Shown here: in pieces, positions 840 to 22,796 of the stretch
Numbering within the stretch: the stretch's first letter is position 1
How the letters are laid out: every line of letters begins with the position of its first letter
Virus record (IMG/VR): IMGVR_UViG_3300026186_000010
Location: 1 to 22,796 of that record
Strand: one strand, 5' to 3'
DNA length: 22,796 bases
Source: a virus
The notes under the pieces: model-generated
Told to the model about the DNA's origin: nothing
What the model saw: only the letters and a program-made list of their open reading frames with translations
The model's database searches: none
Position numbers and translations under genes: made by a program

Positions 840-1853
840 TTAATCCCAACTGCCATCAAATCCAAAATCATCTCCAGTCTCAATTAGAACATTATCAGCG
901 GCAGTTATCTTACCAACATTAGCACCAGCAACATGACCAACTGCTGTAGTACCATCTTGTCCTCGGAGAACTGTAAGTTTATTTCCAGTCTTCTTGTCAA
1001 CATACAGCTCTTCATTATCAATTACAATATATGTATTTTCTGGAATATTAGTGGCATCATTAACTTCAATATAAGCATCTGCTAAACTTATATCATTAGT
1101 AAGATTAGTTGCAATATCTCCATCATAATTCTTCGTTGCTCTAGGAGTAACAGAGTATGTAAGATCTCTTCCTCCAGTTCTAGAATCTGCACTGGAAGAA
1201 TCTGCAGCAATATATCCAATAGCAACTTTCTTAATGATATCACCACCAGCAGTAGATACGGGACCAAACAGATAAGTCTTTGCTGTAAATCTTAATGTAT
1301 ATAATAATACTCTTCTAGTACTAAAGTCACCCTCATAATCATCAGTCATAGTGATATTATCCAAAATCACAGGAATATCTCTTTTCTCTCCAAGTGATTC
1401 TACAAGATCAACTGTTACACTATATGCTGGTTGAAAATAAGGTACTATCTGCTCCACCATTTGTAAAGCATCATCATTTAATTTTGTCATAATAGCAAGT
1501 TCAAATTGCATATTATACGGAACCGGCATATATGTCTTTTTCTCTACCGATTTATCAGCACTACTCCCTGCAAGAAAAGTTTGAGTAGTTGTTACTTTTC
1601 TACTGGGGTCATATGTCATTCCAATAAATTCAAATGACATTCTTGGTAATGTCATTTGAACAGATTTATTCAAATTGGGAGATTGCTCAAGCCTTGCTAA
1701 AAACTTTTGAGTAGGACCATATGCAAGAGGTACTTTGATTACACTTGTTGTATTGTCATCACTATCCGTATGCTTGATAGTTATCCCATTAAATAACGTA
1801 CCAAAAGAAATAATAGTTTTTCTTAATATTTCGTGATAAAAATACTCAAACAT
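840..1853 (-). CDS. gp15: gp15-like tail completion / sheath stabiliser protein
   Basis: This 337-aa protein matches T4 gp15, which caps the completed tail tube and sheath as a hexamer and provides the surface that joins the head. The N-terminus MFEYFYHEILRK resembles T4 MFGYFYNSSFRR. Later family signatures are TLPRMSFEFIGMTYDP (about 68-83; T4 has ILPRINLHLVDFSYNAP), PVPYNMQFELAIMTK (110-124) and MVEQIVPYFQP (132-142), which is near-identical in T4. The core ends about residue 250. Residues about 252-318 form an extra module (IDNEELYV ... LRGQDGTTAVGHVAGANV) not found in T4 gp15, and the protein then ends with LIETGDDFGFDG, as I recall for marine T4-like gp15 proteins. T4 gp15 is about 270 aa, so the module explains the added length. 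The ATG at 1853 has no clear Shine-Dalgarno. A CATAAATA element lies 22 bases upstream, so this gene probably opens a transcription unit with gp16. Confidence 0.95.
   Translation of the reverse strand: MFEYFYHEILRKTIISFGTLFNGITIKHTDSDDNTTSVIKVPLAYGPTQKFLARLEQSPNLNKSVQMTLPRMSFEFIGMTYDPSRKVTTTQTFLAGSSADKSVEKKTYMPVPYNMQFELAIMTKLNDDALQMVEQIVPYFQPAYSVTVDLVESLGEKRDIPVILDNITMTDDYEGDFSTRRVLLYTLRFTAKTYLFGPVSTAGGDIIKKVAIGYIAADSSSADSRTGGRDLTYSVTPRATKNYDGDIATNLTNDISLADAYIEVNDATNIPENTYIVIDNEELYVDKKTGNKLTVLRGQDGTTAVGHVAGANVGKITAADNVLIETGDDFGFDGSWD
900..1100 (-). other. Inserted 'NEE..DGTT..H..G' module in gp15
   Basis: These bases encode about 66 residues of gp15 with the pattern: acidic strand, IVIDNEELYV, L-x-V-x-R-x-x-DGTT, H-x-x-G-x-x-V. 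The same pattern occurs in the DUF4815 giant (6930-7150: KIGNEIIKYTG, LTGVTREIDGT) and in the other giant (19893-20070: QINNEIMKIN, ILVDRTWMGTG, THSVGDVVRV). The module lies between the gp15 core and its conserved C-terminal tail. The boundaries are approximate. Confidence 0.65.
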
Positions 1854-1875: not shown

Positions 1876-1883
1876 TATTTATG
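1876..1883 (-). promoter_or_regulatory. Candidate late promoter CATAAATA (gp15-gp16)
   Basis: The minus strand reads CATAAATAG, 7 of 8 matches to the T4 late promoter TATAAATA. It spans the TAA stop of gp14 and lies 22 bases before the gp15 ATG. In T4, transcription starts a few bases after this element, which here would give a leader of roughly 15-17 bases. Identical octamers occur at the two other equivalent gaps, before gp13 and before gp8. Confidence 0.65.
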
Positions 1884-4428
1884 GATTTCCAAAAGGATTA
1901 CCCTCAGAGAAATCTAATATTGCATCTGCTGCTGTCTCAATATTATCATTATCTGCAAAAGGAGTTACAACATCATCTGTATTATAAACTCTAAGTTTTC
2001 TAGTTGCACCACTTTCTGATCCAGTAAGTGTTTCTCCAACTATAAATGATCCATCAACTATCTTAACCGTTAATATAGAAGTTGAAGTATCCCAACTATT
2101 AACAAGTGCAGTTACACCACTACTTGAACCTGTAACAATTTCATTAAGAATATAATTACCACTACTTGAAGTATCTGGTGAAGATAACGTTATGGTAGGT
2201 GCAGGACTACTAGTTCCAAGTACATATCCATGTCCAGCATCTACTATTCTAATTGATGTAACTATACCAGCAGAACTGATAATTGCAGTACCCTTCGCCG
2301 TATGTATTCCAAGGGCCACATCAACATAATTCTTATCAGCAGCCGAATTACCTATTGATATTGTTGGTGGAGTAAGATATCCACCACCACCATAGGTAAC
2401 TCCAATACCAGTAACAATGCCCGAATTAGCAATACCAAATTCAAAGTTTGTTGTAGCAATACCAACATTAACTGCTACTTTACTCATGAAAATTGAACCA
2501 ATTCCAATTGAGGACACATAAGTATCTGTTTGAATAAAGTTATCAGTCAGAGCAGTACCATAAACATCACTATGACCAATAGCCAACCTAACCCTATCTC
2601 CAACAATAATATTCGTTGTTCCAATACCCGTAATAATATCTGATCCAATACCCAAAGTTCCTTGAGTTTGAACAGAAGTGAATCGCATATGGCAAGTACC
2701 TAATGCCCTAAATGCCTCATCTCCTCCACCAGGAGATTCAATAGTTATAGTGGGGGTATCTTTATAACCATATCCACTATTTCCAATAGAAATTGCAGTT
2801 ACCGTTCCGCCAATAGAAATAGTTGCTGTAGCTGTAGCTCTTACTTGTGCAGTAGAACCAGAGAACGTAAGTAAAGGTGGAACCGTATATCCAACACCAA
2901 TAGTTGCTCCTGTTCCAGTAGCCCATGGATCTGAAGTGGAATTAAATCCAACAGCAGTAACAATACCTGTTATAGGATGAATAGTAACAATACCAACTGC
3001 TGCTATTGTTACTGGATCATTTCCATATCCCGATGTACCTGTTGTAATTGCTACTGTAGGTGCAGTTGTATATGCTCTACCAGTAGTGCTAAACGCTATA
3101 GATGATGCATCAATTGAAGATCCTGACAATGCAACTGTTGCAGCTGCACCAGAAGCAACAGGTGCTGAGAATGTTATCGTTGGAGCACTTGTATAGAATT
3201 TACCTTCAGATCCAATAGCAACACTCTTTACTGTTCCTCCCGTAAGAGAATATGTATCTAATGTTGCTGTTGCAGTCGCAACATTTCCAGTTCCTGTAGG
3301 TAAAGCAAATGTAATTCTTGGAGCCCTCTTATAAAATACTCCTCCAGTTGTCCCTCCTGGGTATAAGTATTCGACAGCGCCTGTATCAATAGTTGCAGAA
3401 ATAACACTTACCCCTGCTCCAATTGGACTCTTAATAGTAGCAGTTGCTGCAGCACCTACATGTGTTGGAGTCTCAAAGGTTACTGTAGGTGCCGTTACAT
3501 ACCCTTCACCTGCCGTAGAAATCGTTACGATACCAACTGCACCAGTTGATGCAATACCAACCGTTGCAGCTGCTCCTACGCCCGTCTCATGAATAAATAC
3601 AATACCAGGAGCAACAGTATACCCAATACCCGGATTTCTTATTTCAACACCCTGAACTTTCTTACCCTTAACTCCATCACAATCAATAATATCACTAATT
3701 AAAGTCGCGATTCCTACTGCATCTGTTCCTCCAGATGGTGCTGATGAAATAGCAACTCTTGGTGCTGTAGTATAGTTATATCCTCTATTTTCTACAGTAA
3801 TAAACCTTACTGCTTTATTAACCACTCCAGTATATGCAGTGGCAGTAGAAGCAGTTCCTACCATAGTAAGAGATTGAATGTAACCTTTATCAACTACATT
3901 ATCATCAATATCTTCAATACCAACATCAACCACCTCATCTTCATATCTAAAGAGTTCGCATCTCAATTCATAAACATAATTCTTTTGAAGTTGATAGAAT
4001 GGTTTTTCATGCTCTACAAATTTAATTTCAAATAAACGATCTCCTAATGGAAACCAAATTAAATCTCCCTCTTTTGGTCTAGTTGATAATTCTATATTAG
4101 GTATATTCTTAATGAGGGGAGATATATAACTTTCATATCTTTCTTGGGAAATAACAAGAACAAGATCATCAAGATCTTGAATTCCAAATTTAGACATGAT
4201 GGTTCCTAAACCTTCATATCCCTCATAATTATCTACATATGCTTCCAAAGGATAAGCATCCGTAAATTTAGATTCAATTACCTCTTTTATTATTGTATTT
4301 TTTGTTATATATTGTCTGGGTATATAATATATCTCTACGCCATACATGCGTAGTTGTTCATTCACCAAATCTTGAATAAGATTCTGTTCTGTTTTAGACC
4401 CTTGCTGAAAATATGGATTAAGTACCAT
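1879..4428 (-). CDS. gp14: gp14-like neck protein with large Gly-Tyr repeat insertion
   Basis: This is the neck (head completion) protein that in T4 forms, with gp13, the connector between the portal and the tail. T4 gp14 is about 256 aa; this one is 849 aa. Residues 1 to about 178 are the gp14 core: MVLNPYFQQGSKTEQNLIQD, VEIYYIPRQY, EGDLIWFPLGDRLFEIKFVE and FYQLQKNYVYELRCELFRYE. The last 30 or so residues (DNIETAADAILDFSEGNPFG) are the family tail as I recall it in marine T4-like phages. Between them sits a long beta-rich insertion with ten Gly-x-Gly-Tyr-x-x-(Ala/Thr/Pro)-Pro modules (about 216-744), and then an SSGVTA / ESGATR module (757-811). The insertion keeps the reading frame, and both ends of the parent protein are intact, so it is a functional enlargement and not a broken gene. 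The ATG is 4 bases after the gp13 stop, which suggests coupled expression with gp13. Confidence 0.92.
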   Translation of the reverse strand: MVLNPYFQQGSKTEQNLIQDLVNEQLRMYGVEIYYIPRQYITKNTIIKEVIESKFTDAYPLEAYVDNYEGYEGLGTIMSKFGIQDLDDLVLVISQERYESYISPLIKNIPNIELSTRPKEGDLIWFPLGDRLFEIKFVEHEKPFYQLQKNYVYELRCELFRYEDEVVDVGIEDIDDNVVDKGYIQSLTMVGTASTATAYTGVVNKAVRFITVENRGYNYTTAPRVAISSAPSGGTDAVGIATLISDIIDCDGVKGKKVQGVEIRNPGIGYTVAPGIVFIHETGVGAAATVGIASTGAVGIVTISTAGEGYVTAPTVTFETPTHVGAAATATIKSPIGAGVSVISATIDTGAVEYLYPGGTTGGVFYKRAPRITFALPTGTGNVATATATLDTYSLTGGTVKSVAIGSEGKFYTSAPTITFSAPVASGAAATVALSGSSIDASSIAFSTTGRAYTTAPTVAITTGTSGYGNDPVTIAAVGIVTIHPITGIVTAVGFNSTSDPWATGTGATIGVGYTVPPLLTFSGSTAQVRATATATISIGGTVTAISIGNSGYGYKDTPTITIESPGGGDEAFRALGTCHMRFTSVQTQGTLGIGSDIITGIGTTNIIVGDRVRLAIGHSDVYGTALTDNFIQTDTYVSSIGIGSIFMSKVAVNVGIATTNFEFGIANSGIVTGIGVTYGGGGYLTPPTISIGNSAADKNYVDVALGIHTAKGTAIISSAGIVTSIRIVDAGHGYVLGTSSPAPTITLSSPDTSSSGNYILNEIVTGSSSGVTALVNSWDTSTSILTVKIVDGSFIVGETLTGSESGATRKLRVYNTDDVVTPFADNDNIETAADAILDFSEGNPFGNP
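2179..3801 (-). repeat. Ten Gly-Tyr / Ala-Pro modules inside gp14
   Basis: Ten related units occur at residues 216 (GYNYTTAP), 267 (GIGYTVAP), 307 (GEGYVTAP), 363 (GVFYKRAP), 409 (GKFYTSAP), 450 (GRAYTTAP), 511 (GVGYTVPP), 552 (GYGYKDTP), 681 (GGGYLTPP) and 732 (GHGYVLG, then SPAP). Most are followed by a beta strand of the type T-[IV]-[TA]-[FI], then an Ala-rich ATATA strand, then a strand of V-x-[AS]-[IV] type. Spacing is mostly 40-60 residues. The longest gap (559 to 681) holds a different segment containing GIGTT turns. The units have diverged at DNA level, so this is an old expansion. Confidence 0.85.
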
Positions 4429-4432
4429 AGCA

Positions 4433-5278
4433 CTAACCTATCATATCTAAAGGTGGAAGTTCATAAGTACTAGACATTCTCTCCCTAATTCGTTCTATTT
4501 CTTTTTCACCATCATCATATATTTGTCTTCCATTTAATTCCACACCACCTGGAAGTTTTACTCCACCAAACTTAATTAGATTTTGACCCCACTGCCTTTT
4601 TAACAATGCAGTAAAATAAAGTTTTAAGAAAGAATCATTCCAAACCCTTGAAAAATCATTTGGATCAACAAGTCTGTAACAATCCATAATAATATAATCA
4701 TTCTTTGCCATACTTCCCCAATCAATATCAAGATATAATCTATCCATTCTTTGATTAAATCTTATTTGTTTTTGGGTTGTTAATAAAAATTCAATATCCT
4801 CAAGATAAGTTTTTACCATTGCATAAGTTAAAATTTCAGTAGATCCCCAATAGTAAATATCATTCAAAAACATCTGATATTTAACACTAAACATATTATT
4901 GGTAACAGTATTAGTACCATCAAAGTGAAATATCTTTGTTACTCCAATAACAGAAGGTGGAACTTGAAAATAATTACTATTCTCTTCCCAATCAAAATCT
5001 ATCGATGTCCCATCAATAGTTGTGGTAGCCGTTGTAGTAGTTATTCCTGCAGTATTACTACCACCTCTTGCTCTTCCCCTATCAATATCATCTTGTGTGA
5101 TTTTATATTTTAAAAATGCTTGAGCTACGCCATCAAAGTGCCTCTCATGGAAATATTGGAGAGCATCATCTAAAAGATCTCCTACTTGCTCCTCGGCAAC
5201 ATTAATTTCTAAGACAGGAGCACCCAGCTGCCTTTTAGCATAATCAATTAATTCGGACCTGGTACTAGGCTGAGACAT
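4433..5278 (-). CDS. gp13: gp13-like neck protein
   Basis: This 281-aa protein matches T4 gp13 (309 aa), the head-completion protein that binds the portal side of the neck and works with gp14. Near the N-terminus, RQLGAPVLEINVAEEQVGDLLDDALQ (split here as RQLGAPVLEINVAEEQ, 16-31, and VGDLLDDALQ, 32-41) followed by HFDG (47-50) parallels T4 RLGAPVVNVEVTEEQI and HFDGS. Towards the C-terminus, RQWGQNLIKFGGVKLPGG (228-245) and ELNGRQIYDDGEKEIE (247-262) are the strongest family signature. A short Thr-rich loop (about 73-92, TTTTATTTIDGT) is the only low-complexity part. The ATG at 5278 follows the 128-aa gene by 22 bases, and that gap holds a CATAAATA element, so gp13 probably opens a unit with gp14. 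No Shine-Dalgarno is visible before the ATG. Confidence 0.95.
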   Translation of the reverse strand: MSQPSTRSELIDYAKRQLGAPVLEINVAEEQVGDLLDDALQYFHERHFDGVAQAFLKYKITQDDIDRGRARGGSNTAGITTTTATTTIDGTSIDFDWEENSNYFQVPPSVIGVTKIFHFDGTNTVTNNMFSVKYQMFLNDIYYWGSTEILTYAMVKTYLEDIEFLLTTQKQIRFNQRMDRLYLDIDWGSMAKNDYIIMDCYRLVDPNDFSRVWNDSFLKLYFTALLKRQWGQNLIKFGGVKLPGGVELNGRQIYDDGEKEIERIRERMSSTYELPPLDMIG

Positions 5279-5297: not shown

Positions 5298-5305
5298 TAT
5301 TTATG
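5298..5305 (-). promoter_or_regulatory. Candidate late promoter CATAAATA (gp13-gp14)
   Basis: The minus strand reads CCATAAATAA across the stop codon of the 128-aa gene. It lies 19 bases before the gp13 ATG, in the same arrangement as the elements at 1876-1883 and 15138-15145. The predicted leader is about 12-15 bases. Confidence 0.65.
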
Positions 5306-5687
5306 GTGCTGAAGCAATTCCCGCTTTAACAAGAACATTTCCCGAAGCAATGGTATATACAGTAGAACCAGAACTCACTAAAATATTATGCACATATCTA
5401 CCTTCATTTAATGATCTCGTATCTGCTGTAGTTAAAGAACTAATAAACTTACCATTAGCAGCACTTGAAAATCCTACTCTAAAAGTTGCTACAGCACCTA
5501 AAGTAGCTCCTACAGCAACACTTCTTGCCATTTGAGCAGATATTGACCATCCAGTAAAATCAAAAGAAGAACTATTTACATCTGTTATTTCATAATTATC
5601 TCTATAATTTGCTCCAGTATTAACTACTAAATTAACACCTTGAGAAGTTCCTGCATTGGGATCAAATTTAAATGAATGAGTTGCCAT
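5301..5687 (-). CDS. Small probable virion protein, beta-rich (128 aa)
   Basis: I do not recognise a named T4 counterpart. The 128-aa protein looks like one all-beta domain: HSFKFDPNAGTSQGVNL, then NYRDNYEITD, a strand pair SFDFTGWSISAQMARSV, a strand VATFRVGFSS, a turn NGKFISSLTTADT, and SLNEGRYVHNILV then TIASGNVLVKAGI. Alternation of 'FTGWSISAQMA', 'G.F...L' and 'G.Y.H.I' resembles the small Ig-like or upper-baseplate accessory domains of tailed phages, which I offer only as a pattern likeness. It starts with ATG at 5687, overlapping the TAA stop of the 77-aa gene by one base (TAATG). It is preceded by the clearest Shine-Dalgarno in the window, AGAGGAG. Position between a giant baseplate-type protein and the neck gene gp13 suggests a structural or accessory role in the particle. 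Confidence 0.8.
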   Translation of the reverse strand: MATHSFKFDPNAGTSQGVNLVVNTGANYRDNYEITDVNSSSFDFTGWSISAQMARSVAVGATLGAVATFRVGFSSAANGKFISSLTTADTRSLNEGRYVHNILVSSGSTVYTIASGNVLVKAGIASAP

Positions 5688-5920
5688 TAGATACTCCTCT
5701 CCGCTAATCCTTTAAGTAAAGATTTAATTTCATCTAACTCTGTTTTAATAGAATCAAAATCATTCTCTAGATCTCCAATCCTGTCACGTTCCTTTTCTTG
5801 AAATTTCTTTCTAGAAAGATATGAATCATACTCTAATTTATTATCATTAATGATAGCTTTTGTGGTAGAATCTCTAAAAAGAGAACTATCCCCCTCAACT
5901 GGAATTAAATTTCTTTTCAT
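5687..5920 (-). CDS. Small coiled-coil protein (77 aa), start corrected to ATG 5920
   Basis: The frame could begin at a TTG at 5935, but that would overlap the upstream gene. The ATG at 5920 lies one base after the upstream TAA (TAAAATG), giving a 77-aa protein that starts MKRNLIPVEGDSSLFRD. I recall small marine T4-like phage proteins with the start MKRNLIPVEG, which supports this choice. The first 30 residues are a compact conserved head. Residues about 37-72 are highly charged with a heptad-like pattern (IGDLENDFDSIKTELDEIKS), so a coiled coil is likely. It has no membrane segment or signal peptide. Its stop overlaps the start of the 128-aa gene, so the two are probably co-translated. Function is unknown. 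A coiled coil could hint at a fibre, chaperone or whisker-like role, which I infer only from shape. Confidence 0.82.
   Translation of the reverse strand: MKRNLIPVEGDSSLFRDSTTKAIINDNKLEYDSYLSRKKFQEKERDRIGDLENDFDSIKTELDEIKSLLKGLAERSI
5694..5700 (-). promoter_or_regulatory. Strong Shine-Dalgarno AGAGGAG before the 128-aa gene
   Basis: The minus strand reads AGAGGAG, 6 bases before the overlap TAATG that starts the 128-aa gene. It lies inside the end of the 77-aa gene. It is the best ribosome site I see in the window, which suggests high-level or independently initiated translation of this small protein. Confidence 0.7.
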
Positions 5921-5921
5921 T

Positions 5922-8900
5922 TTATGCAAGTGCAATAACTCTTAGATCTTGAATAACTGGTACAACCGCTTGACTTGTTGATGTCATGACTAATTTAATT
6001 CTAACAACTTTAAATGATGGCAAGTCATCAATTGACCATTCATACTCTCTAAATGATCTTGGACCAGGTACATAATCATGAAAATCATTTTTCGCTATAA
6101 GAGTATCAGGAGATCCTGTATTCTTAGAAGGATCATTTACTCTCCCATCAGTAAGATTTGAATATCCAGGGAATGGAGTGAAAACAACAGAACCTGATAC
6201 ACTATCATGAATAGAATAAAATGCTCTAATGTCATTTTCTTCACTAATAGATGCAGTAAGCATCACCTTTATAGCAGTTGCTGAATTTGTTAAAATTACT
6301 GGTCGTGAAACATAAAAACATTTGTTCGGATCATCTACAATAGTATTTGATCTCTTATCATTTACATAATCAGTTATAGGTCTATTCACTCTATTTGAGG
6401 TAAATATAATATTTGCTCTTGAAAGATCAATCATTGGAGAAAGTTTTGGATCAGAACTTACTAAATTCATATTCATAGTAAAAGACTTTCTCCCAGGAAG
6501 ATTAGTAAGTCGAGCATCTTCATTTACTTTAGAAGCAACCATTCTTGGAGAAGAAAAATAATTAAGAGCATTTAAAGAAACTGGTTGGAATCCTTTATCA
6601 ACATAAGGAGCCTCAGTTCCATCAACACTCTTACCAGTAATTGTTCTTACTGAAGATGCTACTGTTGTAAATACAGGAGTAATCGTCACTATTTCTGGAG
6701 TTATAATTTCAAAGGGAACATTATAAGTTGCCTTAACATTAGATCCCCCAAAAGATCCAGATTCATTAAAAAGAAGACTGGGCCAACCAACAGTTCCAGT
6801 TCTATCACTTATATTAGTTCCTGAAGAATTATCAATTTTTAAATAGAAATAATCAAGTCCTATCTGCTCATCAATATCTCCTTCACTTAAATCATGAGTT
6901 TTATTAACTCTAAGGAGTGATATTCCATTCATTTCATACTTATGAACTCTTTGTCCATTTGTATATGCAAATGCCTTTGTTCCATCAATCTCTCTTGTAA
7001 CTCCTGTTAATGTATTTGATGCATGTCCAGTATATTTAATAATCTCATTTCCAATCTTAACATAACCAGCATTAGTTGCTCCAACAGCAACATTTTCAAA
7101 TTCTGTAAAGTTTGCAGTACTTGCAAGAGAAATATTTCCAGTACTATAAGCAGAATAATCTACATTTATTTCTGTTGGTGTAACCTCAGATTGTGCATTT
7201 GATATAGTAACCTTATTAACATCCGAATGCATTCCATGATTTCTCATATCTATTTTAAAATGCAATCCATCATCTACTTCTTGTAAAGGTTGTGTTATTA
7301 CAACACCACCAGAATGTGTACTATTGAGAGTAGTAGTAAGACCTGCAGAATTCTCATACGTTAGTGTATATCCTGCACCAACTGTAAATGTCCCCTGAAC
7401 ATTATTTACAAGAAGTTCATTGAAACCACCAATTTCAGTAACACTTAATCTAAGATCTCTTCCTACAGAAGCAATGCCAATTGATGATACTGTTAAATAA
7501 TCTCCAACACTATATCCCAATCCTCCATCTGATATAGTTGCTGCTACTGCAACACCAGAGCTAATTGTTATATTAGCAGTTCCATTTTTTCCAGTTCCGC
7601 TATTAAGATTAGTTAATGTTAAATTAGAATAAGTAGTTGATCCACTACTTGGAGTATATCCAATACCAGCATTTGTAATTTGAAGTGTCTTAGCAGTACC
7701 AGCACTTCCTACGTAATTTCCAGTTGCACCAGATTTTAATTGGGTAATTGTATTTCCATATTCTAAATCAGAATCTTGTACCGTTGTTCCAATTCCAATT
7801 CTAATAGTTTTTGAATTAACAGCAAATGGATTCTGCCTAAGAAGAGAAATATCAGTAGGTAATGGTGGATTAAAGAACTGAACAGATCCTTGACGTTCAA
7901 AATCTGCTCTGAATATTTGGAATTTAAGATCTTCATATTGACTTGGCGTCCAAACCGCAGCATTTTGTGATTTATAGAGAGAACCAAGAAGCGGTTGCTG
8001 TGTAACTAATATTTGCCCTGCTTCTGAAGCAGCCGATTTTACATCAGCTTCTCCTAATCTAGAAATCCAAACAGTATATTCCGTAGAATTTGATAAAAGA
8101 ACTATAGCATACTGCGTACCATCTCCATTCAAATAGACCGGAGCATCAAATGTAACAGTAGTCACGGCAGTTGCATCATCAGAAATATTAACATCATTTG
8201 GCAATACTTCAATATCTGCAAATGCAAGTATTGTATGTGTGGGAAGACCCGTTCTGATTTCTCTAAGTTGACATGTTACAGGTAATACCGGATCTTTACT
8301 TCTAAAGTATAGATTTAGCTTAGTTACAAATATTCCGTTTGCATCATCAACAAAGAAAGATTGTGCTAAAGGATCCTGTCCGTTAAGATTATAAGCCGTT
8401 ACAATATTTTCTACTGTACTACTACTAGTACTAGAACTAGTATCCCCCGCAGTAGCATGAGCGGTCGCATTTAATACTCTAGTCTCCATGAAATCTTCAT
8501 GAGTAACTCTTGCATTTCGTAAAGAAAGAGTTACTTCTTGAGTATTATCAATATCTCCTTGAGAATAGAATATTTCCTCAGCAGAAGTTGTCACTACACC
8601 ACCAGTTCTATCATTTGTAGAGCTATTGGTTAATCTAAACATCGATCTACCAGTTTCAAATTGAGGATTTCCTGCTATATTCCCATCAGGAACCATATAA
8701 GATCCAATTAAAGTTCCAACCCTATCTGAAAGGAGTCTATAATTTGAAATAGTTGCTGTTGCACCACTACTTTGACCCTGCAAAAGCATTCCATTTCTAG
8801 CCCATCCAGCAAATTGTGGTTGCTGTTCAGCAGCAAGGCTAAATGTATCAATATTTAAAGTAGTGCTGGTCGTTGAATAATCTCCAGGAACAGAATTATT

Positions 8901-15137: not shown

Positions 15138-15145
15138 TATTTATG
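15138..15145 (-). promoter_or_regulatory. Candidate late promoter CATAAATA (gp8 unit)
   Basis: The minus strand reads TCATAAATAG over the stop codon of the right-hand giant and lies 18 bases before the gp8 ATG. It matches TATAAATA at 7 of 8 positions, in the same geometry as the elements at 5298-5305 and 1876-1883. The predicted leader contains an A8 run and is about 11-14 bases. Confidence 0.65.
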
Positions 15146-18100
15146 AAGTATAATTAATGTATCTTAGAGGTTTACCTCTTTGAACAATTGCTGAAGTTGA
15201 AATACCACCCAACCCATTAGTTGTGTATGCATTAAATGCTTGAGAAGCAACTTTTCCAAGGTCGATTCTTCCCCAACTAAAGGTTCCAAAATATCTAGAT
15301 GTCTCAACTCCTGAAGTTGAAGGATTATTACTACTAGACCTTGCATAAATTCTTCTTACATAGGTTATTCCAACACCAGTAACATTAGATGCCATACTAC
15401 TTGCAGTATCTACTTGATAAACATTATCAATATATTGAGTTCCAACCCCAATAACATTACCACTAGTATCTTTAGAAGATATTGAGGTAGTTGCTATTCC
15501 TGCATTTGAATCAGAAATTACGAAGAAATCTCCAACATCAAGAGAACTTATAGTAATAGCAGATCCAACATAAGTAGTATTTCTCAAATCTGAGTTACCT
15601 GGAATAAAGAGATCAAAAATCATCTTCTCATTCGACGCCACTGTAGTAGTTCCGAACCCAACAACTATTCCAGCATCTCCAGTATAATAGTTTGAAGTAT
15701 TTGTCTCCTTAACCTTCACAGGATCTGGAATAAGAACTACTGGAGGATTAGTTGAGGTATATCCTGATCCTGGAGTAGAACCTATAGTTATAGCGCTTAC
15801 AACGCCACTACTTAAGGTTGCCGTTGCATATGCTTGATTATCGCCTGGAGTCGTTCCTAGTCCCACTGGGGAACCAATTGTTAATGTAGGTGCAGTAGTA
15901 TATCCATATCCACCATCAGATATAATAATGGACGTAATTGTTCCAGCAGTAGAAACATTTGCAGTGGCGGCCGCCGAAACTAAAGATTCCTGACCAAAAA
16001 TGTTAATATTTTGTTGAATATCATCCCTCAATACACTAGTAGATGCTTCATTATAAGGATCAAATCCAGGTTTAATGGAATCGACATATACTTGCGTAGA
16101 ACCTATTCCAACAGATTGAATAATATGAGTAGTTGGGTGAATATGAGGTTCATAAAGATTTCTATCTTTACCAACAAAAACCCCATCAATAATCATATCT
16201 CTTGTCTGTCTACACCACTTAACAGGTCGTTTAAGAGTTTCATCATCAGTAAGACCTGCTCCTCCATATGGATTAGTCTGAACAGAATCGGTCGTATTAA
16301 TTCCAGTAACAACTCTAGGATCTTGCTGTAAACCAGGACCTTGCCCAAATCCACCTTCATAATTTAATGTAAGTTTATCACCAACCTTAACAGTTTCAAG
16401 AATATCTTTAAAGACAACATCGACAGCACCACTTCCCTTATAGAATATAACTTTTACTGTATCCCCATCTTTTGGTGCCTCAGTAAATTCAATTATACTT
16501 CCACCTTCAAAGATATAAGATTCTCCAGGTTTTTGAATAATATCATTAATGAATATAAGAAGTGTTGCTTTAATATCAATAGGAGACCCTTTTGCAGCTC
16601 TAATTGTAACAAATTGGTCATTAAGTCTTAATGAGAATTTCTTTCTTACCCCATCAAAGAATTGATGGAAAGTATCAAGAACTTCAAATTGACCAACACT
16701 CCATCCAGCGAATGAATCATTAAATGTTTCCTGAATTGATATTTGGAATTCCTCAAATGATTTGGAAGTATCAGTAGGAATTCCACTATTCCCTCCAACT
16801 TCAACGGTTAATATTTCACCTTGACCATATGAATATCCAGTATTTCTAAGACTAAATTCAATTACACTAGAACCTTGTCCCACCACAATATCTACTTTTG
16901 CTTGAGTTCCAATTCCGGAAGAAGAAGAACTATAAAGCAACGGAAGATTAGAATATGATAATGGATCATCAACTACTACACGAAGAGGTTTTTTAACACT
17001 TCCACTTCTACCATAGAAATGAGTTCTTGTTGATATTCCAACATTAAGTTCAAATGTATTATCATTAACAACCCTATTAATAATTGTTGGGTTAATAGCT
17101 GGATCCATCTTAGATGAAGAATTATTATTAATTCTTGGAGATACAATTGCTGCCTGTACAGTTCCTCCCGAATTATAATAAGTTGGTACAGTTGATATTC
17201 CAACATTTACTTCAAATTCTGTGGTGCTATTAACATCAGTAACATTAACACCGCCATAGGTTGGATCAGCTTTTCTAGGATATCTATGATGAGAAGCATG
17301 AGAATCTTTAGCACAAGTAAAGATTAAAGATTCATCTGCCAACTTAATAGTAGTTCCTTTTGTCAAACTATGTGTTCCAATCCCTAATACCAAATCACCC
17401 GTTGCAGGATTATATGTAGCAGTAGAAATACCATAATTAACAATGGTTGTTATACCAACATTAAGAGTAATTGTAGTAGCAGTCGTTGCACCAATAGAAA
17501 CTGAAGTATCATAATAAGGATCTACAGGTCTGGGATAGGTATGATAACTTGCATTCCCATCCATTGCACAGGTAAAGGTTAATGAATTATTAGCAATTTT
17601 AATTGATTCACCTGCTTTTGTTAAACTTCCTACAGCAGAAGATACAAATGTATGAACACCAACATTTGTAGAAGGTGTATTTCCAGTACCTAAAACTTGA
17701 ACTTCAAATGAATTAGTAGTTACGCCAGAAATTGCTAACCACTTATTATTTGCATAATCTCCAGCTCGTGGATAAGTATGATTAGTGGCATGACTATCTT
17801 CGGCACATGTAAAGGTTAATGAATCGGTTGCAAATTTAACTCTATCTCCATTAGAGAATATAGATGTTCCAATTCCAACTCCAGAAACAAAGCAGGTCAT
17901 AATGCCTGTTGTTGGGGTATATGTGCAGGTAGTTAAAGTATGAGAGGTAGATCCTTTAAGTGTATGTGATCCAATAGTTAATGCTAAATCACCCGTGGTA
18001 GGAGTATATGTAGCATCAGAAACATCAAAAGTTACCTTCGGAGCTGTACCAACATTTACAGTTACTGTATTAGTAGTTGTTGATGTAATTGCAGTAGTTC

Positions 18101-21100
18101 CGATTCCAATAATAGGATCATTTGCTCGTGGATAAGAGTGATCAGTAGCATTTCTGTCTTGACTACACGAGAATGTTAATGCGTCGGTAGAGAATCCAAG
18201 AACTTGAGTTGTATTATAACTATGTGAAGGAATTGTTAATACCAAATCACCAGTAGTGGGATCATAAGTTGCATCGGTAGGTGTAGTTGTCCCTACACCT
18301 GCTACAGTTACTCCCCCACCCACTGCACTAACAAAAGTATGTACATAATCTCCACCAGAAATTATTGCATCAGAAGTTGCGCTAATGAAGGAATGTGCAT
18401 AATTACCACCAGAAATTACTGCGTCACTATCTGCACTTACAAAACTATGTGCGGATTGATCTCCAGGACCAGCAACACCAACATTAACAGTAATCGTGTC
18501 ATTCATATGAACAACGCCATTGGTAGATGCTGATACAAATGTATGTGCAGATGTGTCGGTGGAAATGCCTACATTAACATCAAATGTATTTGTAGCAACA
18601 TTTGAAACAGTTAACCATTTACCGCTATATGGATCTGTTTTTCTTGGATATGCATGATGTGTTCTATTTAAATCTGTAGCACAAGTAAATGTTACAGAAT
18701 TATTTACAAGTCTAACTTTATCATTATTATTAAATCCATGACTACCAATAGTTAGAGTCAATACTCCTGTTGTAGGAGCATATGCAGCATTTGTTGCTGT
18801 ATAAGGAGTTCCATCGCTAGTAATACCAATTGATGTGTTATATGCCGGATCATCCCCTCTTGGATAGAAGTGTGTAGATACACCAGCATCTAATCCACAT
18901 GTCATTGCTAGTCCAGTAAATATCACGACACTAGATTTGCCAGTAGTACTCAATCCATGAACACCAGACGTAGTGACAGTCATAATACCAGTAGTGCTGG
19001 TATATGCCGCTGTAGAGATAGAAAGAGGAGCGGCATAATCGCAAGTCATTGCGATACCCGATAAAAGAACCTCTTCACCTCTTACCAATCCATGAGCAAG
19101 TGTTGTAGTAACTGTAGCTATGCCTGATACTGAAGAATATCCAACATTTGATATATCTCTTGGGACATAGAATATTTGCCCACTAGTAATTGCAATGCCA
19201 GTTATATGTCCATCTGAAATTGTTGCAGTACCAACATTTGTATAATTTGCCTCATAAAGGCTAGATGTCTGAATCGCAACATTAACAGTAGGTTGAACTC
19301 CTACTCTATATCCAGATCCACTATTTCCAACACTAATTGACTGAATCGTACCTGCAGTAGAAACTGTTACTGTTCCTCCTGCAGCTACCAATGGTTGATA
19401 TCCAAATCCTCCCGTTGATCCTACAGAAACTATAACCCCTCCTGTAGGAACAGTTGCATTATTAGTATCATAAGCAACCGAAGATGCAGTACCAGTAAAC
19501 ACAATACTAGAGATCCCAACATCTTCAGTTAAACTATAATCTTTCTCTTGTGCCTGAATTCCTTGAGGAATTTGGAAAATACCATTAATTAAAATAACGG
19601 AATTATTTGTAGAAATTCCAGTAATATTTTCACGATTTGATTTTAAAGTAAATGTTTTTCCAATTCCACTAAATTCATTTGAAATATCATCAAAAATATA
19701 ATTTGTTGAGTATGCAGCTCTTTCTTCATTTATACCCCCACTTCTCATAAAGGTTCTACCTTGGAAACTGGAATGAGTTGAGATACCCGTCCAATCTCTA
19801 TCGTCTGGTGCATTTGTTGTTGATGATATTGGATCAGGTCCATAAGGTGCTTCAGCAAAGTGAAGAGTATTATCAATAATATTATAATTACCCTCAATTA
19901 CTCTAACAACATCTCCCACAGAATGAGTGGCAATTCCTGTTCCCATCCATGTTCTATCAACAAGAATTATATTTGTATTTCCAAAACCAACAGTATTGAT
20001 TTTCATTATCTCATTATTAATCTGAATTATATTTCCACCAAAGAATGATGTTATTCCAGAGAAAATGAGTCGATTATCTACTATTTGAGCATTTTTCGCA
20101 AGGGTTGTTGTAACTGAACTACCAACAATAGGAGACTGCATCCAATTATCAATTGCAATAAGAGCTTTTGCATTTTGATTTTTCGCCACAAATACATGAG
20201 ATGTTCCAATTCCAACAGAAGTAAAATTTAAAACCGATGCAGTTGCTGCCAATGCATCACTAGCACTTGCCGCAACTTTAACAACACTCTCATTTACCTT
20301 AACAATGTATAATGTAGATGGTAATTTATCCGTTGTTCCAATTCCAACAAAAGATGCTGTTTGAATTCCAATCGCCATCGTAGCACCAACACCAGCATGA
20401 TGATAAGAAACTTCTTCACCCGTTACAAAGAAATGATCCGGAATAGTAATTGTATTATTCGTTGTACTAACTATCTGAGAATCATCTCCTCCAAAATATC
20501 TTTGGAAAATCATATTCTGATTATGAGTTAGGTCAAAACTTCTCTTGATTGATTTATCAGTTCCCTCATATAAACCATAATCTGTAACAAATGCTGCATT
20601 AGTTCCAATTCCAATCAAATTATCTGCACGAAGACTTTCTTTAAGAAGTCCCACTGCATTTTCAAATACTCTTACTTGAACATCAATACTAGCTTCGGGA
20701 GTAAAGGTTAAGAATGTCCCACTTTCAGTGTAATTAGCATCAAAAGTTCCTAAAGAAGAATGTGATTGTAAAATACCATATTCTGTTATAGATGCAGTTG
20801 TTCCATCATCAACAACTACAACTTCAGACATTTCATACTTATTATTAGTTGTATCTTCTACACAAGTAATATAATATGCACAAGAATGTCCACCCGAATA
20901 TGAAGTAATTGAAGTTACGCCAGGAGATCCTGAAGCAGCAATAGATGCGTATCCAGAATCAAATATACAAGTATTTAATTCTTGAGTCCCAATTCCAGTA
21001 AGTCCAGAATCAGCACTAGCAAGGGAAATAGCAAGAGTGTTTATAGTGTGTGCAACACCAACAGCAGAATCTGGTTTAAAGTCAACTTTAAAATGTGTAC

Positions 21101-22796
21101 CATCAACATAAGCATAATAAGTTCCTAATCCAGCAATTCCAAAACTACTCTGATTATTATCAGTTAATTGACCATACTCAACCAAATCTGCAGTTATTCC
21201 ATCATGAAGAATATTAAGTTCATCGAATTCGTAATAAGAACCATCAGTTCCTCCAATTTCAACTAAAACTTTTGCAGCACGATATGTTGTAGCAATTCCA
21301 ACAATTGTTACTGCCGAACTTGATCCACTTGGAATAGTAACTTGATTTGATCTAATATCTACAATAGTTCCTAAAGTAGTGCTTCCAATTCCCGAAACAT
21401 TACTCTTAAGATCATGTGAAACAAATCCAATATCATAATCATTAATAGAATATTTAATAGGATAGAAGTTAAGTTGTCCAAGAGTTCCACTTATACCAAA
21501 ATCAAATGATCCAAGATCTGGATATGTTGAAACTCTACCATATTGATTAAGATATCCCAATTCATTATCATGAAGAAGAGAAACAATCAAAATTTGTCTT
21601 TCCGCAAGATATCTTTTATCTCTTGCAAAAGTAATATATTTCTTAGTTCTTGCAGAAGCTAATTCAAATAAATCAACTGTACTATACCTATCTGCTCTAG
21701 GTAGATGACTAAATGATCCACTAAAATCATCAATTAGTAAAACTCTATTTCCAACAGATTCATAATAATCTGCTAACACTCTATTTTGGAAGACAATTTC
21801 ATTAGAAATTAAACCAAAAGTTCCAAATTTTTCAGTCTTTTCAGTTGCTAAATCAAAAGCATAAACACAATTTAAATCACCTGTTCCAAAAAGTTCAACA
21901 ACAACATCAGACATAGAATCCCATGCTTCTAAATCATAGTAAATTGGATTTCCATCCCAAGTGCTATCCATTGGACTTTCAATCATTAAATCTGAGAATT
22001 TTACAAATCCAGAAGTATGATTTAAAGAACTTACAGGATCATTCCATGTATCATAATCAATTTTAGATTTTAAAGCATATGAAAAATATTGATAATAATG
22101 ATTATCAGGAAGTCTTTGTGTTGTATTATTTAAAATTCCAGTGTCATACTTCCACCCTTTATTAACATCTGAATATGGTCCTAGCTTAATATAGGAATTA
22201 AATTCTACTTTCTCCCGAATAACTCCTCTAGTATTTGAAGATTGTCCTGTTAAAATACTATTTAATTTAAGATCACTATCTGTTGATACTTTTAAGAACT
22301 CATCCCTATTATTCCAACTTTGAACTACTCCAACATAAGAATCAGATACAACATATTCTCCCATAAAGAAATCATTTTTCTTAAGTTTTATATCAAAATC
22401 TGGGAAATATGCTTCTGGAAGAATTCTACCCATAGAAGAATATGGATCAAAAACTCCTGGGAATGCATTAGGAGCTAATGCATCTGTCATATCATAAGTA
22501 ATAGAACCCGTATTTCCACCTAAATCTGGTTCAATAGCAGTAACGGGGAATAATGCATAATCATAACTATTAGAATTAAATCCCTTTGCAGTAGATCCAA
22601 TTCCAACACTCAAATTCTCTATTAATACTTTACTACCAACTTCAAATGGGAAAACATCACTAAATCCAGTATTAAATCCTACAGTTACTTTTTTAGTTGT
22701 ACTATTATAGGATATAGTATTAATACCAATACCATTTGAGTTATCAATAGGAATGATAGTCGGAGTTGTGTTATACATTCCTGTTGTATTTTTACG
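15141..22796 (-). CDS. Giant virion structural protein in the gp7 position, 5' end outside window
   Basis: The frame is open to the right edge: six more codons (R K N T T G) precede the Met at 22778, with no stop. The GGA directly before that ATG is too close to serve as a ribosome site. The true start is therefore probably outside the window, and at least 2551 codons are present. Numbered from Met 22778, residues 1 to about 650 are a folded head with YYQYFSYALKSKIDYDTWND (about 230-250). A mosaic middle follows: a NEIMKIN/DRTWMGTG module (about 905-960), an INGIFQIPQG module (about 1070) and an array of C-x2-D-x5-H-x-YPR-x2-D repeats (1294-1838). The conserved C-terminal part has WSVGQFEVLDTFHQFFDG (about 2020-2040), INDIIQKPGESY (about 2080), RPVKWCRQTRDMIIDGVFVG and a closing GTFSWGRIDLG segment. 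T4 has gp7 directly before gp8, so this is a positional gp7 counterpart. I could not see real sequence likeness to T4 gp7. Confidence 0.88.
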   Translation of the reverse strand, partial: RKNTTGMYNTTPTIIPIDNSNGIGINTISYNSTTKKVTVGFNTGFSDVFPFEVGSKVLIENLSVGIGSTAKGFNSNSYDYALFPVTAIEPDLGGNTGSITYDMTDALAPNAFPGVFDPYSSMGRILPEAYFPDFDIKLKKNDFFMGEYVVSDSYVGVVQSWNNRDEFLKVSTDSDLKLNSILTGQSSNTRGVIREKVEFNSYIKLGPYSDVNKGWKYDTGILNNTTQRLPDNHYYQYFSYALKSKIDYDTWNDPVSSLNHTSGFVKFSDLMIESPMDSTWDGNPIYYDLEAWDSMSDVVVELFGTGDLNCVYAFDLATEKTEKFGTFGLISNEIVFQNRVLADYYESVGNRVLLIDDFSGSFSHLPRADRYSTVDLFELASARTKKYITFARDKRYLAERQILIVSLLHDNELGYLNQYGRVSTYPDLGSFDFGISGTLGQLNFYPIKYSINDYDIGFVSHDLKSNVSGIGSTTLGTIVDIRSNQVTIPSGSSSAVTIVGIATTYRAAKVLVEIGGTDGSYYEFDELNILHDGITADLVEYGQLTDNNQSSFGIAGLGTYYAYVDGTHFKVDFKPDSAVGVAHTINTLAISLASADSGLTGIGTQELNTCIFDSGYASIAASGSPGVTSITSYSGGHSCAYYITCVEDTTNNKYEMSEVVVVDDGTTASITEYGILQSHSSLGTFDANYTESGTFLTFTPEASIDVQVRVFENAVGLLKESLRADNLIGIGTNAAFVTDYGLYEGTDKSIKRSFDLTHNQNMIFQRYFGGDDSQIVSTTNNTITIPDHFFVTGEEVSYHHAGVGATMAIGIQTASFVGIGTTDKLPSTLYIVKVNESVVKVAASASDALAATASVLNFTSVGIGTSHVFVAKNQNAKALIAIDNWMQSPIVGSSVTTTLAKNAQIVDNRLIFSGITSFFGGNIIQINNEIMKINTVGFGNTNIILVDRTWMGTGIATHSVGDVVRVIEGNYNIIDNTLHFAEAPYGPDPISSTTNAPDDRDWTGISTHSSFQGRTFMRSGGINEERAAYSTNYIFDDISNEFSGIGKTFTLKSNRENITGISTNNSVILINGIFQIPQGIQAQEKDYSLTEDVGISSIVFTGTASSVAYDTNNATVPTGGVIVSVGSTGGFGYQPLVAAGGTVTVSTAGTIQSISVGNSGSGYRVGVQPTVNVAIQTSSLYEANYTNVGTATISDGHITGIAITSGQIFYVPRDISNVGYSSVSGIATVTTTLAHGLVRGEEVLLSGIAMTCDYAAPLSISTAAYTSTTGIMTVTTSGVHGLSTTGKSSVVIFTGLAMTCGLDAGVSTHFYPRGDDPAYNTSIGITSDGTPYTATNAAYAPTTGVLTLTIGSHGFNNNDKVRLVNNSVTFTCATDLNRTHHAYPRKTDPYSGKWLTVSNVATNTFDVNVGISTDTSAHTFVSASTNGVVHMNDTITVNVGVAGPGDQSAHSFVSADSDAVISGGNYAHSFISATSDAIISGGDYVHTFVSAVGGGVTVAGVGTTTPTDATYDPTTGDLVLTIPSHSYNTTQVLGFSTDALTFSCSQDRNATDHSYPRANDPIIGIGTTAITSTTTNTVTVNVGTAPKVTFDVSDATYTPTTGDLALTIGSHTLKGSTSHTLTTCTYTPTTGIMTCFVSGVGIGTSIFSNGDRVKFATDSLTFTCAEDSHATNHTYPRAGDYANNKWLAISGVTTNSFEVQVLGTGNTPSTNVGVHTFVSSAVGSLTKAGESIKIANNSLTFTCAMDGNASYHTYPRPVDPYYDTSVSIGATTATTITLNVGITTIVNYGISTATYNPATGDLVLGIGTHSLTKGTTIKLADESLIFTCAKDSHASHHRYPRKADPTYGGVNVTDVNSTTEFEVNVGISTVPTYYNSGGTVQAAIVSPRINNNSSSKMDPAINPTIINRVVNDNTFELNVGISTRTHFYGRSGSVKKPLRVVVDDPLSYSNLPLLYSSSSSGIGTQAKVDIVVGQGSSVIEFSLRNTGYSYGQGEILTVEVGGNSGIPTDTSKSFEEFQISIQETFNDSFAGWSVGQFEVLDTFHQFFDGVRKKFSLRLNDQFVTIRAAKGSPIDIKATLLIFINDIIQKPGESYIFEGGSIIEFTEAPKDGDTVKVIFYKGSGAVDVVFKDILETVKVGDKLTLNYEGGFGQGPGLQQDPRVVTGINTTDSVQTNPYGGAGLTDDETLKRPVKWCRQTRDMIIDGVFVGKDRNLYEPHIHPTTHIIQSVGIGSTQVYVDSIKPGFDPYNEASTSVLRDDIQQNINIFGQESLVSAAATANVSTAGTITSIIISDGGYGYTTAPTLTIGSPVGLGTTPGDNQAYATATLSSGVVSAITIGSTPGSGYTSTNPPVVLIPDPVKVKETNTSNYYTGDAGIVVGFGTTTVASNEKMIFDLFIPGNSDLRNTTYVGSAITISSLDVGDFFVISDSNAGIATTSISSKDTSGNVIGVGTQYIDNVYQVDTASSMASNVTGVGITYVRRIYARSSSNNPSTSGVETSRYFGTFSWGRIDLGKVASQAFNAYTTNGLGGISTSAIVQRGKPLRYINYTS
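16430..16660 (-). other. 'INDIIQKPG' module, second copy in right-hand giant
   Basis: This part encodes KKFSLRLNDQ, then LLIFINDIIQKPGESY, then SIIEFTEAPKDGDTVKVIFY. It shares its order of elements with the copy at 19490-19670 (KTFTLKSN, VILINGIFQIPQ, KDYSLTED, SIVFTG). This is a recurring marine phage virion module with the pattern F-x-L ... I-N-x-I-x-Q-x-P ... I-x-F-T. Boundaries are approximate. Confidence 0.6.
17265..18899 (-). repeat. Six C-x2-D-x5-H-x-YPR-x2-D repeats in right-hand giant
   Basis: Six units carry an invariant 17-residue core C-x-x-D-x5-H-x-Y-P-R-x-x-D. The cores lie at 17265-17315, 17520-17570, 17757-17807, 18117-18167, 18633-18683 and 18849-18899. Each is part of a larger unit of about 72-172 residues that usually opens with a strand like ATYDPTTGDLVLTI-SH, then LTFTC, the core, and a closing strand like TNTFEVNVGIST. 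The cores differ at DNA level, so conservation is at protein level. A decayed copy with only the Cys (IAMTCDYAAP) lies just N-terminal, near 19040-19055. Confidence 0.9.
18288..18449 (-). repeat. 54-bp tandem repeat, three units of 18 residues
   Basis: Three consecutive 54-base units (18396-18449, 18342-18395, 18288-18341) encode H-[ST]-F-[VI]-S-A followed by DSDAVISGGNYA-like sequence; the third is diverged. Related HTFVSA segments lie at about 18543 and 17652. The units lie inside the array of YPR repeats and keep the reading frame. Confidence 0.85.
19490..19670 (-). other. 'INGIFQIPQ' module, first copy in right-hand giant
   Basis: This part encodes KTFTLKSNRENI, VILINGIFQIPQG, DYSLTEDVG and SIVFTG. 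It parallels the module at 16430-16660 about 3 kb further along the same gene. Boundaries are approximate. Confidence 0.55.
19893..20070 (-). other. 'NEIMKI..DRTWMGT' module in right-hand giant
   Basis: This part encodes IIQINNEIMKIN, IILVDRTWMGTGI and THSVGDVVRVIEG. It is the third example of the module inserted in gp15 (900-1100) and present in the DUF4815 giant (6930-7150). Confidence 0.55.

Follow-up and report, generated by a model that had tools for sequence, protein, structure and literature searches.

Gly-Tyr beta modules in the gp14 neck protein of a marine T4-like phage: a possible exchangeable adhesin at the head-tail junction

The window analysed here, a 22,796-nucleotide stretch of viral DNA, encodes on its minus strand an 849-residue gp14 neck (head-closure) protein (1879 to 4428) that carries a string of beta modules, apparently within a small barrel that follows the core. 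We consider it an even call that this array serves as an outward-facing accessory adhesin, its exposure and binding being presumed. An adhesin is the best reading of the array because whole modules move between related phages, the array diverges faster than the core and the neighbouring proteins, one clade carries a lectin-like alternative, and the 936 phages of lactococci provide a precedent.

The core of the protein is a T4-type gp14, the stopper of a Kyanoviridae phage, by both sequence and fold. Residues 2-169 match PF11649 (T4_neck-protein; 7.8e-32, 111.2 bits against a curated cut-off of 25) and residues 1-333 match PHROG 460, head closure Hc2 (1.6e-138). The nearest solved protein is T4 gp14 (E 1.8e-28), and the core model aligns with 9lu4_M at Z 8.4 and rmsd 3.4 over 94 residues with 39% identity. 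The gene stands in the usual order gp13-gp14-gp15-gp16, with neighbours matching head-tail adaptor Ad2 (gp13, 281 residues, 4433 to 5278, minus strand; PHROG 211, 2.7e-47), T4-gp15_tss (gp15, the tail sheath stabiliser or terminator, 337 residues, 840 to 1853, minus strand; PF16724, 1.2e-86) and small terminase (399 to 833, adjoining gp15). The gp15 of the window bears a C-terminal extension, S-PM2, HTVC008M and Shfl2 having only ~267-273 residues, and this extension is found in most phages with a gp14 of at least 525 residues and in many with one of 460. An assembly artefact as the source of the long gp14 is ruled out by an 849-residue protein on another contig (L003) that is 99% identical to that of the window, and by complete versions of 829-945 residues on more than 50 further contigs.

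Read from its N-terminus, the protein begins with the stopper barrel of the core (residues 1-178, 3895 to 4428), followed by residues 182-203 (3820 to 3885), which structural alignments suggest to be the first strands of the small post-core barrel. Modules 1-3 (residues 204-321, 3466 to 3819; pLDDT 83) and the last module (residues 710-744, 2197 to 2301) are common to the 460-residue forms in an alignment of short and long proteins; between them lie ~390 extra residues (~322-709, 2302 to 3465), a cassette of the long class that comprises modules 4-9 and a different beta domain and is missing in relatives of 458-461 residues. The SSGVTA domain (residues 745-820, 1969 to 2196), which by its barrel matches would form the rest of the small barrel, precedes a helical C-terminal tail (residues 821-849, 1882 to 1968) that contains an NPFG invariant in alignment A1 and ends in LDFSEGNPFGNP. 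All of these parts are on the minus strand. The earlier note had described a gp14 core, an internal array of ten Gly-Tyr/Ala-Pro modules, an SSGVTA part and a C-terminal tail, all of which are confirmed. The ten modules, of the form Gly-Tyr...Ala/Pro-Pro, lie at about residues 216, 269, 309, 363, 409, 450, 513, 554, 683 and 734; a fixed version of the motif occurs nine times, whereas 2000 shuffles averaged 0.28 occurrences and never exceeded 4.

An AlphaFold2 model of the protein, built with 39 homologues (mean pLDDT 76, pTM 0.47), gives each module a hairpin and a short strand, with most module blocks at pLDDT 80-92. The structure prediction proposed earlier as a check therefore returned folded beta modules distinct from the core. 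A disordered array is not supported, pLDDT values below 50 falling mainly on the core region and some loops; for the core, these low values perhaps reflect its oligomeric state and a shallow alignment. The module array is predicted to be inserted in one small barrel, with the first strands before it and the others after it, because structural alignments to small barrels span residue 182 to residues 817-824 with only ~70 residues matched. The barrel is deduced from the ranges aligned, and the fold matched (Z 6-7) is a common one. The 292-residue gp14 of S-PM2 includes the SSGVTA domain but lacks an array, which agrees with an inserted array. What had been called an SSGVTA module is present in the window, but it is apparently a small barrel domain hosting the array and not another repeat. 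The beta domain of the cassette at residues ~570-670 (2419 to 2721) is unlike the Gly-Tyr modules, and has structural matches at Z 5-7 to common small barrels.

Complete gp14 genes at 354 loci fall into stepped lengths, with gene numbers per class that mirror the queries used and not abundance: 256 residues (the T4 type), ~290, ~370, 450-500 (201 genes), 525-662 (few), 762-765 (69), 829-875 (60) and 945-960 (4). Module number grows with length, from none at ~290 residues to three at 370, four at 460, six at 560 and 10-11 at 840. Named phages include HTVC008M (290 residues), S-PM2, P-SSM2 (470), S-SM2 (481), S-CAM9 (657), S-SSM7 (762) and Sf-FS3 (763), and no GenBank phage match was found that covers 80% of the gp14 of the window. 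Among the 80 contigs with cores nearest to that of the window, 65 have a gp14 of 450-520 residues, one has 564, six have 829 or more, and eight are cut by the contig end; the ten-module class is a minority here (6 of 72 complete genes), the commonest form having ~460 residues and four modules. The long gp14 is not the singular protein that the earlier note implied, the family having a whole length series. The array is ordinary in kind for the family and uncommon in size, so that the refuting condition set in the earlier note, a gp14 ordinary for its group, applies to the type of extension but not to its length. The more than threefold enlargement described before holds against T4 gp14 but not against the commonest form among its own relatives.

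The array diverges faster than the core, gp13 and gp15 in same-class pairs, in which identity is 0.63 for the array, 0.82 for the core, 0.80 for gp13 and 0.73 for gp15. On a tree of the core only (181 columns, quick search), the 829-960 residue class requires 20 changes, at least eight of them forced by well-supported branches; direct pairs are the stronger evidence of exchange. Three contigs with an 852-residue gp14 (L146, L073 and L294) and two with a 564-residue gp14 (L147 and L280) are 98% identical in core DNA, 98-99% in the 600 nt on each side (95-99% for the flanks) and 90-93% in the two contigs compared across longer stretches, with inserts that share 61% identity where aligned. Contig L010 (851 residues) and S-SM2 (481 residues) likewise share 92% of core DNA and 90-94% of the flanks, with an insert identity of 51%. 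The L302 and L307 genes have identical cores and are otherwise nearly so, yet differ by 81 residues that correspond to two whole modules; this two-module block has 92-97% DNA identity to L147, while the rest of L147 has 62-88% to L302. Because near-identical genes differ by blocks, and because the block matches the otherwise divergent L147, related phages evidently gain, lose and exchange whole modules by recombination, as far as sequence comparison can indicate.

In T4, gp14 forms a hexamer beneath the gp13 dodecamer, its core forming the stopper ring and a flexible C-terminal arm contacting gp15 (PMC12270204). T4 gp14 (PF11649; PDB 9lu4-9lu7, 9mkb) shares the 13-14-15-16 gene order and the core with the protein of the window, however it is only 256 residues long and has only the short flexible arm after the core. 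The expanded stretch lies between core and tail, matching the core-to-arm position of T4, and the array would be placed outside the neck, pointing outward, because its T4 counterpart lies between the ring core and the gp15-contacting arm. The suggestion that the insertion projects from the neck is therefore reasonable: the modules are folded, T4 has only a flexible arm there, and the way in which the region varies suits an exposed decoration. With six gp14 copies per virion, as in the T4 hexamer, approximately sixty modules would surround the head-tail junction, where they may bind glycans of the host surface or the environment weakly and with many hands. Such an adhesin would account for the turnover of this region, by gain, loss and exchange, against a core and flanking genes that persist.

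Related proteins show both the extent and the limits of the likeness. The gp14 proteins of 460-763 residues in P-SSM2, S-SM2, S-CAM9 and S-SSM7 agree with that of the window in the core, the barrel and the position of the Gly-Tyr modules, but carry ~4-8 modules or, in the 762-residue clade, a lectin-like domain. In lactococcal 936 phages, carbohydrate-binding modules sit on a neck protein of ~500-900 residues, and one of them bound host cells; these neck passage structure proteins keep an almost constant stretch of ~180 N-terminal residues and have an exchangeable remainder, as in the gp14 of the window (PMC6669499). The 936 protein differs in being a separate siphophage collar protein and not gp14, whose carbohydrate-binding folds are recognised and whose host binding has been assayed (PMC6669499). 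The stopper of Staphylococcus phage 812, an equivalent neck ring protein, has an external beta-sandwich domain, which is one extra domain where the window encodes a repeat array (PMC12886913).

Sugar binding is hinted at directly only by the gp14 of S-SSM7, in which a concanavalin A/laminin-G-like domain (Laminin_G_3) lies inside the array, at 7.6e-6 and 26.6 bits, slightly under the Pfam cut-off of 27.6 bits. The 762-residue length class to which this gp14 belongs is one clade in the core tree. No Pfam lectin or carbohydrate-binding domain matched the gp14 of the window, and no ligand site was identified.

The modules are also found outside gp14. Searched with a profile of modules 1-3, seven of eight phage records show matches in further open frames, some of them 3000-5000 residues long, and the T4-type control Shfl2 shows none; the same modules recur in cyanophage virion proteins other than gp14, among them proteins of the baseplate, and in the window frame 15141 to 22796. 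The minus-strand frame here (15141 to 22778) encodes a large gp7-like protein that runs past the window end and has six copies of an LTFTCAxDxxxxxHxYPRxxDP repeat at residues ~1287-1840. Foldseek searches with the module found many phage proteins among viral models, several of them cyanophage structural proteins, and no match in the PDB at E <= 0.001; PDB sequences searched with a module-alignment profile gave nothing significant, and NCBIfam holds no family for the module. The wide occurrence of the modules in cyanophage virion proteins may mean that they are generic structural bricks, which counts against an adhesin. A 2409-residue protein annotated as 'gp14 neck protein' in metaG-MbCM1 (NC_019443.1, L415:20957-28186) was considered as an extreme case of gp14 and rejected: it lies at the VrlC position, the head-closure gene of this phage is a separate 308-residue ORF (L415:35846-36772), and the name seems to be a misannotation, probably caused by the shared modules.

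An alternative that we regard as unlikely, although it is the strongest competitor of the adhesin, is that the array wraps the neck as a structural collar, a built-in decoration that braces the joint of gp13, gp14, gp15 and the sheath top without binding the host. In phage 812, neck decoration proteins are believed to strengthen the joints between adaptor, stopper and terminator (PMC12886913), the collar of Milano connects the sheath with the neck (PMC10491603), and gp15 is longer (medians of 333-357 residues) in most phages with a gp14 of at least 525 residues. However, gp15 is equally long in many phages with a 460-residue gp14 and does not track the array, and its lengthening was accordingly rejected as a partner of the array. 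Bracing contacts should moreover be conserved and inherited together with gp13 and gp15, whereas the array is replaced in near-identical backgrounds.

In a passive expansion, recombination would carry modules from one virion gene to another, and a permissive loop would accommodate them although they have little function. This would fit their wide distribution in cyanophage structural proteins, as well as the isolated phages in which a module-free gp14 of ~290 residues occurs. Idle sequence should drift and shrink, however, and the length steps are narrow (829-875 residues in 60 genes), with long-class proteins 55-64% identical over their entire length, which makes such a passive expansion very unlikely.

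Two further proposals concern fibres. The earlier note had suggested that the array could substitute for whiskers, no wac gene being recognisable. Fibritin_C (PF07921) was absent from nine Kyanoviridae records, eight of them complete genomes and the ninth a 231-kb environmental record, and was detected in the positive control Shfl2 (1.3e-35); it had no match in the gp14 of the window or over ten environmental contigs, which as fragments lacking a positive control prove nothing alone. The genomes without wac include S-PM2 and HTVC008M, whose gp14 of ~290 residues has no array. Lack of wac thus looks general in Kyanoviridae, so that the array is not required to explain it, and T4 fibritin binds domain III of gp13 (190-239) and not gp14 (PMC12270204), leaving the substitution weak. 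The gp13 of the window has alignment gaps where T4 has this fibritin-binding domain, as judged by eye at 26-28% identity. The gp13 proteins of S-CAM9 and S-8S56 (L085:1871-2989 and L084:1872-2990; ~372 residues) have an insertion of ~90 residues that is absent from that of the window. A large host-recognition cluster has been reported between the VrlC-like gene and gp13 in pelagimyophages and cyanomyophages (PMC7029224); in the window, this interval (5301 to 5935) holds only two small ORFs of 128 and 82 residues.

In the second proposal, the modules resemble domain I of the T4 sheath protein gp18 and act at the neck much as whiskers do, by holding the long tail fibres when these are retracted. 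Domain I is a surface domain set into a structural protein. It sticks out from the T4 tail, where retracted fibres bind to it, and the G106S change within it inhibits retraction (PMC3004832); T4-type gp18 reads PGSNY at this site, where G107, counting the initiator Met, would be the glycine concerned. Among solved structures, the module trio aligns best with T4 gp18 residues 99-188 (Z 5.5-5.6, rmsd 3.0-3.1, 74-75 residues, 19% identity) and the next fold reaches only Z 2.7, although a Z of 5.6 is within the range of chance or common arrangements and is suggestive only. Domain I differs in being a single domain on the sheath, the profile match of the module to T4-type gp18 is not significant, and the role would be dispensable in the array-less relatives that also lack wac, so that fibre holding ranks as the least probable of the explanations considered.

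An accessory adhesin remains our preferred reading. Tentatively, and at somewhat less than an even chance, it can be extended to marine T4-like gp14 as a whole, which would be a recombining display platform with a fixed core and tail and exchangeable beta modules (a lectin-like domain in one clade), presenting about six adhesin copies at the head-tail junction. Cyanophage gp14 has been flagged as possibly under selection and geographically patterned, a signal its authors describe as indistinguishable from false positives (PMC5112629); gp14 and the neck are unmentioned in PMC3037559 and PMC10665884. Shared modules, for their part, seem to mislead annotation, as in metaG-MbCM1. If the proposed platform is correct, the head-tail junction, which is not usually counted as a host-recognition site of T4-like phages, carries a changeable adhesin. 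The gp14 gene belongs to the structural core and is regarded as conserved in T4-like phages; a changeable region within it points to a second site of contact with the host or the environment in phages that are very abundant in the ocean.
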